Source of the DNA: Actinomycetota bacterium | Lineage (GTDB): Bacteria; Actinomycetota; Acidimicrobiia; Acidimicrobiales; Ilumatobacteraceae | NCBI GenBank assembly: GCA_009702045.1 | Contig: WLIV01000002.1 | Span: forward strand, 1-64,000 | Direction of reading: 5' to 3' | DNA length: 64,000 nt | Translations under genes and position numbers: made by a program | In this document: one piece after another, positions 24,047-34,735 of the stretch | Layout of the letters: the number at the start of each line of letters is the position of its first letter | How positions within the stretch are numbered: the first letter of the stretch is position 1 | Notes under the pieces: model-generated | Databases searched by the model: none | The model's input: the letters and a program-made list of their open reading frames with translations, nothing else | What the model was told of the DNA's origin: nothing

Positions 24047-24895
24047 TCAGACGTTGGGGATCATCTGCATGATCTCCACGACCGCGTCAGCATGCACTCT
24101 GGCCTGCTCCGCAGTGAGCGTCGCACCGAGTTCGATGATGAACGACATCGTGTCGGGCATCGTCTTACGCACCCAGGTGGCCGCCACACCCGTGTACTTC
24201 CCGCCGGTGACTGACACATAGTCCAGCCCGGTGAGCTGCGCGTACCGTTGACGCAGCGGCCCATCGCGCCCGGCACTGGGCCCCACCGTGTGCGCGTCCT
24301 GGTGGTACCAGAGCGTGAGCGCCGGATGAAGCCGCAACGCAAAGGTCATGAAGGCCTGCGTCTCAGGTTCGCTCGCCGGACCACTACCGCTGTACTGCCA
24401 CTCACCGGGCCGGGCGATCGACGTCCAGTCGTGCGGAAAGTTGCGGTTCAGATCGACCTGATTGCCGTTGCCGCGCACGTCGTTGGCCAGGCCATCCGGG
24501 TTGATCGCTGGCAGCAGCCACAGGTCGTAGCCGTCCGGTAACGGCATCGTGCGCAGGTCATCGAGGATCGCCAACCCGTCGTTCTCATTGCCATGGATGA
24601 CTCCGACCACCAACACCACAATGCCACCCGCGGTGCCCCGGTGGTATGCGGTGATCGGTCGCCCCTGGACCGACGTACCGATCGTCTCCTCGCCGAGGAG
24701 TCCCGGAACAGTGCTGGTCGTCGTCGCTGCACTCGTGGTCGACGCCGGCACGCTGGTGGTCGTGGACGTCGACGGGGCAACGCTCGACGATGTGGAGACC
24801 GGCGCACTCGGCCGCGAAGCCACGCCCCCGGATGTGGTGGTGCTACACCCGGCGGCCACCGCCACGAGCAGCACGATCGAGGCGGCGCGGTTCAC
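24047..24895 (-). CDS. M14 zinc carboxypeptidase-like lipoprotein
   Basis: A 282-residue predicted lipoprotein (signal peptide with lipobox VAAGC, Cys17) with a Ser/Thr/Val-rich linker to about residue 65 and an M14 metallocarboxypeptidase domain. Zinc ligands HxxE (H101, E104) and H198, substrate-binding NRNF (150-153), and catalytic Glu255 (IIELG) are all present, so it should be active. Related M14 enzymes trim peptidoglycan stem peptides at the cell surface, and wall-peptide turnover is the best guess. Its start overlaps the nrdR stop by 4 nt (ATGA), so it is co-transcribed with nrdR. Confidence 0.87.
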   Translation of the reverse strand: MNRAASIVLLVAVAAGCSTTTSGGVASRPSAPVSTSSSVAPSTSTTTSVPASTTSAATTTSTVPGLLGEETIGTSVQGRPITAYHRGTAGGIVVLVVGVIHGNENDGLAILDDLRTMPLPDGYDLWLLPAINPDGLANDVRGNGNQVDLNRNFPHDWTSIARPGEWQYSGSGPASEPETQAFMTFALRLHPALTLWYHQDAHTVGPSAGRDGPLRQRYAQLTGLDYVSVTGGKYTGVAATWVRKTMPDTMSFIIELGATLTAEQARVHADAVVEIMQMIPNV

Positions 24896-25350
24896 GATTC
24901 CTGCAGCTTCTTCAGCAGCACCAATTCGCGCTGGAAGTCGGCTGCTGCGTCAAAGCCTTTGTACACGCTGGCAAAGCGGAGATAGGCAACCTCATCGAGT
25001 CGTCGCAGACGATCGAGTACTTCGACGCCAATCAGTTGTGCCAGAACCTCAGGACCCTGCAGGCGCACTTCGTCCTCGACGGCCTCCCCGAGCTGGTCGA
25101 TCTGCTCCGCCGTCACCGGGCGGCCCTTACATGCGGCAGATACCCCGGCGACAAGTTTGCTGCGGTCGAACGACTCGCGCTGGCCATTGCTCTTCACGAC
25201 GGTGAGCGGCACCTCTTCAGCGCGTTCGTAGGTAGTGAACCGATGGGCACAGGCCACGCATGACCGTCGCCGACGAATCGTGGTTCCCTCTTCGGCCTCA
25301 CGCGAATCGATCACCTTCGTGTCGTCCGCCAAACATTTCGGGCACCGCAT
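24892..25350 (-). CDS. nrdR: Transcriptional repressor NrdR
   Basis: A 152-residue ATP/dATP-sensing repressor of ribonucleotide reductase genes. The zinc ribbon (MRCPKC at 1-6 and CVACAHRF at about 31-38) is followed by the ATP-cone domain (VVKSNGQRESFDRSKL onward). Full family length. In this genome its obvious target is nrdJ, whose upstream region carries a 13/16 match to the NrdR box. It follows the LysM gene by 45 nt in the lexA-LysM-nrdR arrangement known in mycobacteria, and overlaps the M14 peptidase gene. Confidence 0.95.
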   Translation of the reverse strand: MRCPKCLADDTKVIDSREAEEGTTIRRRRSCVACAHRFTTYERAEEVPLTVVKSNGQRESFDRSKLVAGVSAACKGRPVTAEQIDQLGEAVEDEVRLQGPEVLAQLIGVEVLDRLRRLDEVAYLRFASVYKGFDAAADFQRELVLLKKLQES

Positions 25351-25395: not shown

Positions 25396-25767
25396 TCACG
25401 GCAAGGTGATGGCCTGACCGATCTGCACCGAGGAACCGTGGTTAATCGAGATCAGTGCGTCGAGGTAATTGGCTTGGGAGTACTGCTCGTGGAATCGCTG
25501 CGCAATCGACCACAGGGTGTCGCCTGAACGCGCCACGTACACGTGTGTGGAGCTTGCCGGGCGAACCGTGGAGGCGGAGGCAGGATCGCCCTCACGGTTC
25601 GCCAGGACGCTGCCGGCGCCAAGCCACACGACGACGACGATGGCGACGAGCACCAACGACACCAGCAGGCGGCGGCGCACGAAGATCTGCACGCTCGGGC
25701 GGCCAGCGGCCATCCGCGAAGGAACGACCACCGTGTAGGGAGCTAGGGATGCTGCCGTGGATGCCAT
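25396..25767 (-). CDS. LysM membrane protein, putative SOS cell-division inhibitor
   Basis: A 123-residue protein with one membrane helix (about residues 32-52, LVSLVLVAIVVVVWLGAGSV) and a C-terminal LysM domain (YVARSGDTLWSIAQRF ... INHGSSVQIGQAITLP). ATG 25767 follows GGAAGG 12 nt upstream. Divergent from lexA and sharing its SOS operators, it has the location and architecture of YneA of Bacillus, DivS of Corynebacterium and Rv2719c of Mycobacterium. Those halt division during DNA damage or bind the wall. Function by synteny and architecture only; sequence identity in this group is low. Confidence 0.82.
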   Translation of the reverse strand: MASTAASLAPYTVVVPSRMAAGRPSVQIFVRRRLLVSLVLVAIVVVVWLGAGSVLANREGDPASASTVRPASSTHVYVARSGDTLWSIAQRFHEQYSQANYLDALISINHGSSVQIGQAITLP

Positions 25768-25824
25768 GGTGTCGATGTCCTTCCGGTGCCTGAGGGCCCA
25801 AGAGTGGGTGGAATGCTGCTCGAC

Positions 25825-25920
25825 CGAACAGGTGTTGGTCGAACAACTGTTCGCAGTCTGGACGAACATTCGTTCGATGTCAACCTCGGGGCGAACATTT
25901 GTTGCACGAACGGGTGTTTG
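25825..25920. promoter_or_regulatory. Five SOS (LexA) boxes between LysM gene and lexA
   Basis: Gram-positive SOS consensus CGAAC-N4-GTTCG. Two perfect sites: CGAACAACTGTTCG (25840-25853) and CGAACATTCGTTCG (25863-25876). Three near-matches: CGAACAGGTGTTGG (25825-25838), CGAACATTTGTTGC (25892-25905) and CGAACGGGTGTTTG (25907-25920). They flank both promoters. Confidence 0.9.
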
Positions 25921-25940
25921 ACCGGCTGCCCGAACGCGTG

Positions 25941-25946
25941 TACGGT
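25941..25946 (+). promoter_or_regulatory. lexA -10 hexamer TACGGT
   Basis: TACGGT ends 6 nt before the lexA ATG, consistent with a leaderless lexA mRNA. The last SOS box lies 20 bp upstream, over the expected -35 region. Confidence 0.5.
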
Positions 25947-25952
25947 GCAGCC

Positions 25953-26582
25953 ATGGCCGAAAAGCTCACCGACCGCCAACGCGGCATCCTCGACATGATC
26001 GAAACCAGCATGCGCGAACGGGGCTACCCCCCGAGCGTGCGCGAAATCGGTGAGGCCGTCGGCCTCACCTCCCCATCCACAGTGCACAGCCACCTGGCCA
26101 CGCTGCAACGGCTCGGCTATCTCAAGCGCGACCCAACCAAGCCGCGTGCGATCGAGGTGCGCTTCGACCCGTCATCGGGTGCCGCCATCGAGCGCCGTCC
26201 GGTGCGCCACGTGCCACTCGTTGGCGATGTCGCCGCTGGCACCGACGTGCTGGCACAAGAGAACGTCGAGGAGTTGTTCCCGCTGCCGGAGGACTTCACC
26301 GGTACCGGCGACTTGTTCATGCTGCGTGTCCGCGGCGACTCGATGATCGAGGTCGGCATCATGGACGGCGACTTCGTGGTTGCCCGCGCACAGACCACCG
26401 CAGAGAACGGCGAGATCGTCATCGCCGGCATCCCCGGTGAAGAGGCGACGGTGAAGACCTATCAGCGCAAGGGCCACACGGTCACGCTCATTCCGGCCAA
26501 CCCGCGGCTCACGCCGATGGTGTTCACCGACGGCGAGGTGCAGATCTTCGGACGCGTCGTCACCGTGATGCGCCGCCTGTAA
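25953..26582 (+). CDS. lexA: LexA SOS repressor
   Basis: A 209-residue repressor of the DNA-damage response. The N-terminal winged helix-turn-helix (LTDRQRGILDMIETSM, GYPPSVREIGEAVGLTS, STVHSHLATLQRLGYL) binds CGAAC-N4-GTTCG boxes. The C-terminal S24 peptidase domain carries the cleavage bond Ala95-Gly96 (DVAAGTD), Ser130 in RGDSM and Lys168 (EEATVKTY), so RecA-stimulated autocleavage should work. ATG 25953 is chosen because homologues start with M-x-E-K-L-T-x-R-Q and the -10 sits 6 nt upstream. Autoregulated by the adjacent boxes and divergent from the LysM gene. Confidence 0.96.
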   Translation: MAEKLTDRQRGILDMIETSMRERGYPPSVREIGEAVGLTSPSTVHSHLATLQRLGYLKRDPTKPRAIEVRFDPSSGAAIERRPVRHVPLVGDVAAGTDVLAQENVEELFPLPEDFTGTGDLFMLRVRGDSMIEVGIMDGDFVVARAQTTAENGEIVIAGIPGEEATVKTYQRKGHTVTLIPANPRLTPMVFTDGEVQIFGRVVTVMRRL

Positions 26583-33049: not shown

Positions 33050-34108
33050 TCAGATTTCGATGGGTTCCTCATCGGCGGGGGTGAACGCCGGAACTGCGGC
33101 GTCGACGCCGATACCAGCCTGCACTCGCACCTTCTCGGAGACCTCGACCATGATCTCGGGATTGGCGGAGAGGAACCCCTTGGCGTTCTCGCGACCTTGT
33201 CCGAGTTGTTCACCGTCGTAGGTGAACCACGCCCCGGATTTCTTGATGATCCCCATGTCGACCGCCATGTCGAGCAGGGAGCCCTCACGGCTGATGCCCT
33301 TGCCGTACATGATGTCGAACTCGGCCTGGCGGAAGGGCGGTGCCACCTTGTTCTTGACGACCTTCACCCGCGTGCGGTTACCGACGATCTCCACGCCGTC
33401 CTTGATGGACTCGATACGGCGGATGTCGAGGCGCACCGAGGCGTAGAACTTCAGCGCACGACCGCCAGGGGTGGTTTCGGGCGAGCCGAACATCACGCCG
33501 ATCTTCTCGCGCAACTGGTTGATGAAGATCATGATCGTGTTGGTGCGGTTGAGGTTGGCGGTGAGCTTGCGCAGCGCCTGGCTCATCAAACGGGCCTGGA
33601 GGCCGACATGGGTGTCGCCCATCTCGCCCTCGATCTCCGCTCGCGGGGTGAGCGCAGCCACCGAGTCGATGACCACGACATCGAGGGCACCGGAGCGCAC
33701 CAGCATGTCGGCAATCTCGAGGGCTTGCTCGCCCGTATCGGGCTGGCTGATCAGGAGCTGGTCGATGTCGACACCGATGGCTCGGGCATACACCGGATCC
33801 ATCGCGTGCTCGGCGTCGATGTAGGCGCAGATACCGCCGTTGCGCTGTGCCTCGGCCACGACGTGCATGGCGAGCGTGGACTTACCCGAGGACTCGGGAC
33901 CGAAGATCTCGACGACGCGGCCGCGTGGCAGACCGCCCACACCGAGTGCGACGTCGAGTGCGAGGGCGCCGGTCTGGATGGCCTCAATAGCCATCGACCC
34001 CTTCTCGCCCATCCGCATGATGGAACCCTTGCCGAACTGCTTGTCGATTGCCGCCAGGGCCACATCGAGTGCCTTGTCCCGGTCGTTACTGCTGCGATCG
34101 TTGCTCAC
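33050..34108 (-). CDS. recA: RecA recombinase
   Basis: A 352-residue strand-exchange ATPase and LexA co-protease. P-loop GPESSGKST (70-78), catalytic Glu and Walker [16 protein letters not shown], loop L1/L2 region [19 protein letters not shown] with [20 protein letters not shown], and a short acidic tail ending PADEEPIEI. No intein. GTG 34108 follows GGAG. An SOS box lies ~190 bp upstream, so it is in the LexA regulon defined by the lexA region 8 kb away. Followed by miaB rather than recX. Confidence 0.97.
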
Positions 34109-34197: not shown

Positions 34198-34294
34198 GGG
34201 GTGCACCGTACGAAAGGGGTGTGACAGGGTTCCCGAGCGGGAGTCCTGCTACCCGAACCGGGGTGCAGTTGTTCGAACGACACGAGTGTAACTA

Positions 34295-34308
34295 CGAACA
34301 GCCGTTCG
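34295..34308. promoter_or_regulatory. SOS (LexA) box upstream of recA
   Basis: CGAACAGCCGTTCG is a perfect CGAAC-N4-GTTCG operator. It overlaps the end of the neighbouring DUF983 gene region, so the recA promoter probably sits at 34270-34310. Confidence 0.85.
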
Positions 34309-34309
34309 A

Positions 34310-34735
34310 TCAAGCATCACTGCAGGATTTCTGAAGGCTCTCGCGAGCCTCGGCAATTTCTGGCTCGGCAGGCGGGTGGGACAGCAAATCGAAGGCCTGC
34401 CACAGCATGTAGGTGAACGGGTAGGCGATCAACGGAATCACGATCGCGCCCGCCACCATGCTGGCGGTGAGCGTCGCCACAGGGAAATCTGGCGACGTGG
34501 CGACGAACGCAATCACCATGCCGACCGCCAGCGTGAAGAACGTGATGACCACATTGAGCGCGATCGGCCCGAGCTCGAACCCATGTTCGCGGTGCCAGCG
34601 AATACCACACGAGCGACAGCGTTCGTGATGGCCGAGCCAGCGCCGCATCGTGGACGGCCTGCGTCCACACATCGGGCACTTGAGGGAAATCGCTCGCCGA
34701 AACATCTGGAATGGCGAAGGCAACGTTGGGTTCAT
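34310..34735 (-). CDS. DUF983-family zinc-ribbon membrane protein
   Basis: A 141-residue protein (start at ATG 34735; an upstream in-frame ATG at 34759 exists). The N-terminal zinc ribbon CPMCGRR ... CRSCGIRW is followed by two membrane segments (about residues 60-82 and 88-112), the DUF983 layout. The inner start is preferred because TACCAT ends 7 nt before it. Function unknown; family members often sit near cytochrome oxidase genes, but not here. Upstream of recA on the same strand and divergent from the membrane protein at 34758. Confidence 0.78.
   Translation of the reverse strand: MNPTLPSPFQMFRRAISLKCPMCGRRPSTMRRWLGHHERCRSCGIRWHREHGFELGPIALNVVITFFTLAVGMVIAFVATSPDFPVATLTASMVAGAIVIPLIAYPFTYMLWQAFDLLSHPPAEPEIAEARESLQKSCSDA

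Follow-up and report, generated by a model that had tools for sequence, protein, structure and literature searches.

In the window, the whole 64,000-nucleotide stretch of DNA analysed here, lexA is divergent from a small gene coding a LysM protein, and a cluster of LexA-type sites separates the two. The locus raises the question of whether this protein is an SOS-controlled inhibitor of cell division and of why its control region holds so many operators. A preliminary description had proposed an inhibitor of the YneA/Rv2719c type at a lexA-nrdR locus, a proposal that finds support in synteny, in promoters apparently built from operators, in the anatomy of the protein and in the precedent of Mycobacterium tuberculosis. 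The region is probably the Acidimicrobiia version of the lexA/SOS division-inhibitor cassette (probability of about 0.82). Its features are:

24892-25350, minus strand: nrdR, separated by 45 bp from the LysM stop codon (TIGR00244, 174.2 bits, cut-off 124.65)
25396-25767, minus strand: LysM gene, 123 amino acids, with a short basic cytosolic amino terminus, one membrane helix and a carboxyl-terminal LysM
25778-25784, minus strand: LysM ribosome-binding site GGAAGGA, read off the sequence
25825-25838, no strand assigned: operator 1, one mismatch, downstream of the LysM promoter
25840-25853, no strand assigned: operator 2, perfect, covering the LysM transcription start predicted from the -10, near 25848
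25855-25860, minus strand: predicted LysM -10, CAGACT, with a similar -10 in close relatives
25863-25876, no strand assigned: operator 3, perfect, between the -35 and -10 of the LysM promoter
25878-25883, minus strand: predicted LysM -35, TTGACA, followed by the 17-bp spacer that holds operator 3
25892-25905, no strand assigned: operator 4, two mismatches, between both promoters
25907-25920, no strand assigned: operator 5 (CGAACGGGTGTTTG), one mismatch, its altered half-site being the source of the lexA -35
25918-25923, plus strand: predicted lexA -35, TTGACC, formed by the operator 5 half-site
25931-25944, no strand assigned: operator 6 (CGAACGCGTGTACG), one mismatch, overlapping the lexA -10
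25941-25946, plus strand: predicted lexA -10, TACGGT, 17 bp from the -35, with operator 6 over it
25953-26582, plus strand: lexA, 209 amino acids (TIGR00498, 232.9 bits, cut-off 110.95)

The neighbourhood of lexA, LysM gene and nrdR is as previously described, the three products scoring above the cut-offs of TIGR00498, PF01476 and TIGR00244. For the LysM gene the most likely start is the ATG at 25767, which has a ribosome-binding site; an upstream ATG at 25869 was rejected because it sits in an operator. PF01476 covers residues 77-123 (30.9 bits, gathering cut-off 20.9). In an AlphaFold2 model computed with 44 sequences the predicted membrane helix spans residues 26-56, and blocks of the LysM region reach pLDDT values of 85-98 (overall pTM 0.43). 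A Foldseek search with this model gave no match at E <= 0.001; the top solved structures are LysM domains, with a best E of 6.6e-3. The layout proposed earlier, one membrane helix plus a carboxyl-terminal LysM, is thus confirmed by Pfam, hydropathy and the model, and hydropathy predicts one membrane helix in 93 of the 95 LysM proteins found next to lexA in the class.

The best NCBIfam match of the protein is the YneA profile NF010723, with 25.4 bits, below its curated cut-off of 60. In the whole genome the LysM gene is the sole match to this profile at E <= 0.01 (26.2 bits). The protein is therefore better described as one that would work like YneA or ChiZ, judging by position, regulation and anatomy, than as a member of the YneA family. 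Bacillus subtilis YneA shares with it one helix, a carboxyl-terminal LysM and the place of an SOS-controlled lexA neighbour, while the LexA box and the phylum are different. The basic cytosolic amino terminus is longer in the window protein than in YneA. Beyond the LysM domain, the relation to YneA rests on layout and position.

Many LysM proteins are enzymes of the cell wall or assist such enzymes. The gene could accordingly code a damage-induced factor that remodels or protects the wall, a hydrolase or an envelope-stress protein, whose effect on division is indirect, and ChiZ has been reported as a cell wall hydrolase that does not need its LysM (PMC3989709). A protein of 123 residues with no domain besides helix and LysM leaves however little room for a hydrolase fold. 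Moreover, the division block by YneA is explained by peptidoglycan binding through LysM, where D46 and T47 are required for binding and toxicity, together with binding of the helix to FtsW (PMC13396833). A wall-remodelling role is thus unlikely. The motif pair equivalent to D46/T47, as assigned by motif reading, has D in 78/95 and T or S in 92/95 class proteins, and the window motif is GDT. Three FtsW/RodA-type proteins are encoded by the genome.

Conservation of the locus was followed in three sets of loci, all counted raw and ignoring kinship among genomes. The window is placed in the Acidimicrobiia by its nearest named relatives, which are Ilumatobacteraceae, Acidimicrobiaceae and further members of this class. 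For the Acidimicrobiia (the class set) 148 genomes were searched, 138 gave a LexA match and 118 of the 138 loci were used, the 20 genomes left out belonging all to family f15. Other Actinomycetota classes contribute 101 loci from 102 genomes with a LexA match (G245 was left out). The third set has 80 loci from titled records (the named set); it shares at least three contigs with the class set and the two are thus not independent. One genome of the window's genus, G047 (97% complete), has no LexA match at E <= 1e-20, which reflects either loss or an assembly gap. The titles of three loci, L206, L214 and L181, name Bifidobacterium breve or Acidobacteria and look wrong, since their LexA shares 74-75% identity with the window LexA.

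As in the window, lexA has a LysM gene as its divergent neighbour in 95/118 class, 76/80 named and 43/101 other-class loci. Downstream of the LysM gene, a crude search by a short motif detected an nrdR-like start in 86/94, 56/75 and 20/42 of the respective loci with enough sequence. The LysM-to-nrdR distance has a median of 55 bp in the class and is 45 bp in the window, where the two genes are probably co-transcribed.

Scanning with up to two mismatches reveals six sites of the type CGAAC-N4-GTTCG in the 185 bp between the LysM gene and lexA. The five sites reported previously within 96 bp are correct (25825-25920 is 96 bp long, with 1, 0, 0, 2 and 1 mismatches), but five is not their total, the sixth at 25931-25944 having been overlooked. 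With two mismatches allowed, 99 matches are counted over the whole window versus 51.2 +/- 7.6 in shuffled sequences. Of the six sites between the two genes, the five with 0-1 mismatch lie within 120 bp. Perfect sites number 24 genome-wide, compared to none for the reversed pattern. Chance predicts 0.033 sites with 0-1 mismatch per 450 bp for the 114 of 118 class loci with at least 450 bp upstream, on which the class site counts are based (4 shorter loci were left out); 109 control stretches farther upstream have 0.028 per 450 bp.

Five operators had also been considered more than usual. For this position it does not hold: between three and five sites with 0-1 mismatch are present in 82/114 class loci, and M. 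tuberculosis is reported to have four known boxes there (PMC8151990). The mean number of such sites is 3.48 in class loci with a LysM gene (n=86, f15 excluded), 1.94 in LysM-less class loci (n=18) and 0.60 in f15 (n=10). The ten f15 loci (L124, L125, L135-L142), from genomes of ~1 Mb, have the LysM gene in 9/10 cases and one recognisable box in 6/10, with none in 4/10. Their LexA is divergent (about 35-39% identity) and may recognise a changed motif.

The operators are placed where they would control a promoter on the LysM strand, operator 3 in its spacer and operator 2 over its predicted start. TTGAC at most 11 nt before an operator is found on this strand in 77/95 class, 68/76 named and 24/43 other-class loci with the LysM gene; on the lexA strand of LysM-gene loci it is seen in one class, two named and one other-class locus. 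Among other-class loci without a LysM gene the element is present in 4/58. The full set of -35, operator and -10 (NANNNT) is found in 54/95 class, 45/76 named and 21/43 other-class loci, compared to means of 0.3, 0.1 and 0.0 in controls with shuffled flanks. A strict TANNNT reduces these counts to 37 (n=95), 13 (n=76) and 7 (n=43). The window -10, CAGACT, deviates from TANNNT at its first base.

The lexA promoter appears to be built from the operators themselves. The commonest single mismatch in class boxes is C13T (77 boxes, 22 families), which changes the operator half GTTCG to GTTTG, the start of a -35; 54 of these 77 boxes are the second from lexA. This result, like those on site order and on -10 offset, comes from 84 to 86 class loci, f15 and LysM-less loci being excluded. 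In 68/73 loci and 21/22 families a TANNNT -10 follows the start of the C13T box at a distance of exactly 34 nt; of the 24 offsets tested, no other gave more than 5 loci. The resulting fusion, CGAAC-N4-GTTTG-N20-TANNNT, precedes lexA in 78/116 class, 64/80 named and 37/99 other-class loci and has no occurrence in 1.32 Mb of control sequence. The same GTTT ending is listed for the lexA box of Streptomyces venezuelae (PMC9380542). In the window, lexA transcription would start at or near the ATG at 25953, leaving the mRNA leaderless.

The operators are many because two back-to-back promoters carry two to three each, and cooperativity is therefore not needed to account for their number. They could nonetheless form one cooperative array of five to six sites that represses the two genes jointly, in a graded or switch-like manner. 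Sites with 0-1 mismatch are most often spaced by 17, 24 or 29-30 bp and never by less than 15 bp, the end-most LysM-side site outscores the end-most lexA-side site in 63/84 loci, and the affinity of S. venezuelae LexA is reported to differ between its targets (PMC9380542). The promoter elements account however for much of the spacing, and the best sites of the two halves do not differ when compared by family (17/28 families, p = 0.34), so that there is no clear order of strength. A single cooperative array is quite unlikely. An affinity order, with tight binding on the LysM side and loose binding on the lexA side, had been considered too: the end-most site is perfect in 62/84 loci on the LysM side versus 9/84 on the lexA side. 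It was dropped because best-of-half scores do not differ by family and C13T is a promoter letter.

Autoregulation of lexA is general. The operators could thus serve lexA only, with the LysM gene a bystander kept by synteny, and loci devoid of the LysM gene bear on this possibility. No LysM match was found in 23/118 class loci, six of which have less than 900 bp of upstream sequence. Among the 19 LysM-less class loci with enough upstream sequence the lexA fusion is kept in 11/19; its absence from 8/19 speaks against the proposed cassette. Outside the class the fusion is present in 14/55 LysM-less loci, a point for the bystander reading. The LysM-type promoter element is retained in 4/19 class loci, a further point for the bystander reading; the sequence of two of these four, L070 and L072, ends 822 and 595 bp upstream. 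Against it, the element is gone in 15/19, operators lie within the LysM-strand promoter, and box number tracks the LysM gene: outside the class at least two boxes are found in 38/43 loci with the gene versus 6/55 without it (3/101 loci with less than 450 bp upstream being left out). In families f4 and f20 the LysM-less loci have lost the LysM-type element in 9/9 cases and kept the lexA fusion in 7/9. That the LysM gene is a bystander is highly improbable.

In some LysM-less loci the operators are kept and the slot beside lexA codes a small membrane protein without LysM (L203 from Desertimonas flava, L199, L221, L290, L293 and L304). The amino-terminal part of the L203 protein matches the family amino-terminal profile with E = 1e-8, a value obtained in a small candidate set and with a large composition bias. 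The match of L199 is weaker (3.5e-5) and that of L221 is not significant (0.093). The slot proteins of the other-class loci L290, L293 and L304 may be unrelated. No small membrane protein without LysM was recognised in the other-class exceptions L225, L252 and L306.

A second type of promoter element is found on many LysM genes. The sequence TGTC with a TANNNT 16 nt further on is present in 34/95 class and 16/43 other-class loci and in only 1/76 named loci, any other tested offset giving at most 3 loci. Its position is upstream of the operator nearest the LysM gene in 1/34 class and 7/16 other-class carriers. The string TGTC[AT]CACC is found in 49/95 class, 24/76 named and 4/43 other-class loci versus 2 occurrences in 838 kb of control sequence. 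The element, with the TGTC of the mycobacterial motif, resembles a PafBC (RecA-NDp) promoter. The LysM promoter of the window has no PafBC-like element; in close relatives a TGTCACACC-like string is found near the LysM start in some, and is degenerate or missing in others.

Genome-wide, the PafBC-like pattern gives 17 matches versus 3 for its reversed control in the window's genome, and 9 versus 1, 4 versus 3 (G023), 25 versus 1 and 5 versus 0 in four relatives. The excess is thus seen in four of five genomes, G023 having only 4 versus 3. Fourteen of the 17 matches were inspected and two have no evident damage gene. Matches precede recA, a dnaX-like gene, an SbcD-like gene (weak carboxyl-terminal match), a RadA-like gene (assigned by reading) and an exonuclease gene adjoining a WYL protein pair. 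The remaining ones precede DUF222/HNH-type or unassigned genes; L357 and L359 have no Pfam match, in a scan that left out L356 and L362. The RecA-NDp system has been reviewed as extending past mycobacteria, with recA under both systems (PMC8223512). Since control of the division-inhibitor operon by the two systems was already reported for M. tuberculosis, only its spread in Acidimicrobiia is added here.

The closest known arrangement is that of M. tuberculosis Rv2719c (ChiZ), which is also divergent from lexA, has clustered SOS boxes and codes a LysM protein. The nrdR gene beside it is Rv2718c. The window differs by its six sites and by the lack of a recognisable PafBC-like element on its LysM gene. 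Its protein is also shorter, 123 amino acids against about 165 in Rv2719c, the two being compared by description. One of the four M. tuberculosis boxes is reported to act on lexA, the three others and a PafBC motif acting on the neighbouring operon (PMC8151990). The genes printed there as Rv2019c-Rv2017c are in this reading Rv2719c-Rv2717c, a misprint. Moxifloxacin increases Rv2719c expression about 40-fold, as reported in PMC7911356.

DivS, ChiZ and YneA are listed as damage-induced inhibitors in a review on Corynebacterineae (PMC3989709), where DivS of Corynebacterium glutamicum, also an actinomycetote lexA neighbour, is an SOS-induced suppressor of division. The preliminary description had given DivS the same layout as the window protein; this is incorrect, since DivS is reported to have no LysM domain (PMC6851548). 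The same paper presents Staphylococcus aureus SosA, a LexA-controlled division inhibitor with a single helix and no LysM whose gene is divergent from lexA, and points out the common position next to lexA. The LysM-less slot proteins resemble SosA in layout only. As DivS and SosA illustrate, a protein in this slot can do without LysM, and sequence therefore cannot prove activity.

The literature search found no expression or phenotype report for a member of the Acidimicrobiia, and no work on the SOS response or LexA of Ilumatobacter nor on lexA, nrdR and a LysM gene together. For marine members of the order, the available part of PMC10205998 names LexA once as present, and nothing on operators or division inhibitors was found in it. 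The kind of system is already known; the addition would be its promoter design in Acidimicrobiia, of which no description was found in the parts of the literature available.

Sites, promoter layout, synteny and protein anatomy are shown by comparison of sequences; LexA is expected to bind the operators of the window, and DNA damage to induce the LysM gene. In undamaged cells LexA dimers would occupy two operators of the LysM promoter, operator 3 within its spacer and operator 2 at its start, and also operators 5 and 6, which lie on the -35 and -10 of lexA. Upon damage, RecA-driven self-cleavage of LexA would release both promoters, leading to resynthesis of LexA and to production of the LysM protein and, from the gene behind, of NrdR. 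The LysM protein, anchored in the membrane by its single helix and with the LysM domain toward the wall, would then delay septal wall synthesis until repair is complete. It probably stops division after DNA damage. By analogy with what is reported for B. subtilis YneA, the target would probably be FtsW/FtsI, FtsW being the likely partner.

More tentatively, at somewhat below even odds, the pair of lexA and a small membrane protein may represent an ancestral actinomycetote damage checkpoint, its operators serving at the same time as core promoter elements for lexA and its partner. Many lineages would add to the inhibitor gene a LexA-independent promoter of PafBC type, as reported for M. tuberculosis, and LysM would be exchangeable, a membrane helix and the building of promoters from operators being conserved. 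If this is true, either damage pathway can stop division. A checkpoint described in few model Gram-positives would be extended to a class known mostly from metagenome-assembled genomes. The promoter anatomy explains the high operator count, and the exact positions can be tested in Aquihabitans sp. G128 (L170). Loci with a LysM-less slot make the requirement for LysM testable, and those with a PafBC-like second promoter allow division arrest independent of LexA to be tested within the class.

Damage-type elements are also found elsewhere in the genome. The recA gene (coding sequence 33053-34105 plus the start codon just above, minus strand) has perfect LexA boxes at 34295-34308 and 34576-34589 and a PafBC-like TGTCACACC-N7-TACGGT upstream at 34205-34226 (minus strand); these elements suggest that recA answers to both damage pathways. 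Perfect LexA boxes precede also genes for a PHP/DNA polymerase III alpha protein (dnaE2-like), a UvrB-like protein, an exonuclease/GIY-YIG protein, a PHP/HhH protein and several DUF222/HNH proteins, and some perfect sites fall within coding sequence. The RecA-dependent gene set of M. tuberculosis is reported to include five HNH endonucleases (PMC8151990). Proteins with DUF222, HNH or both have a LexA box at or right before their start in L007, L128, L129 and L133, and a PafBC-like element at this position in L349, L358 (below the DUF222 cut-off) and L361.
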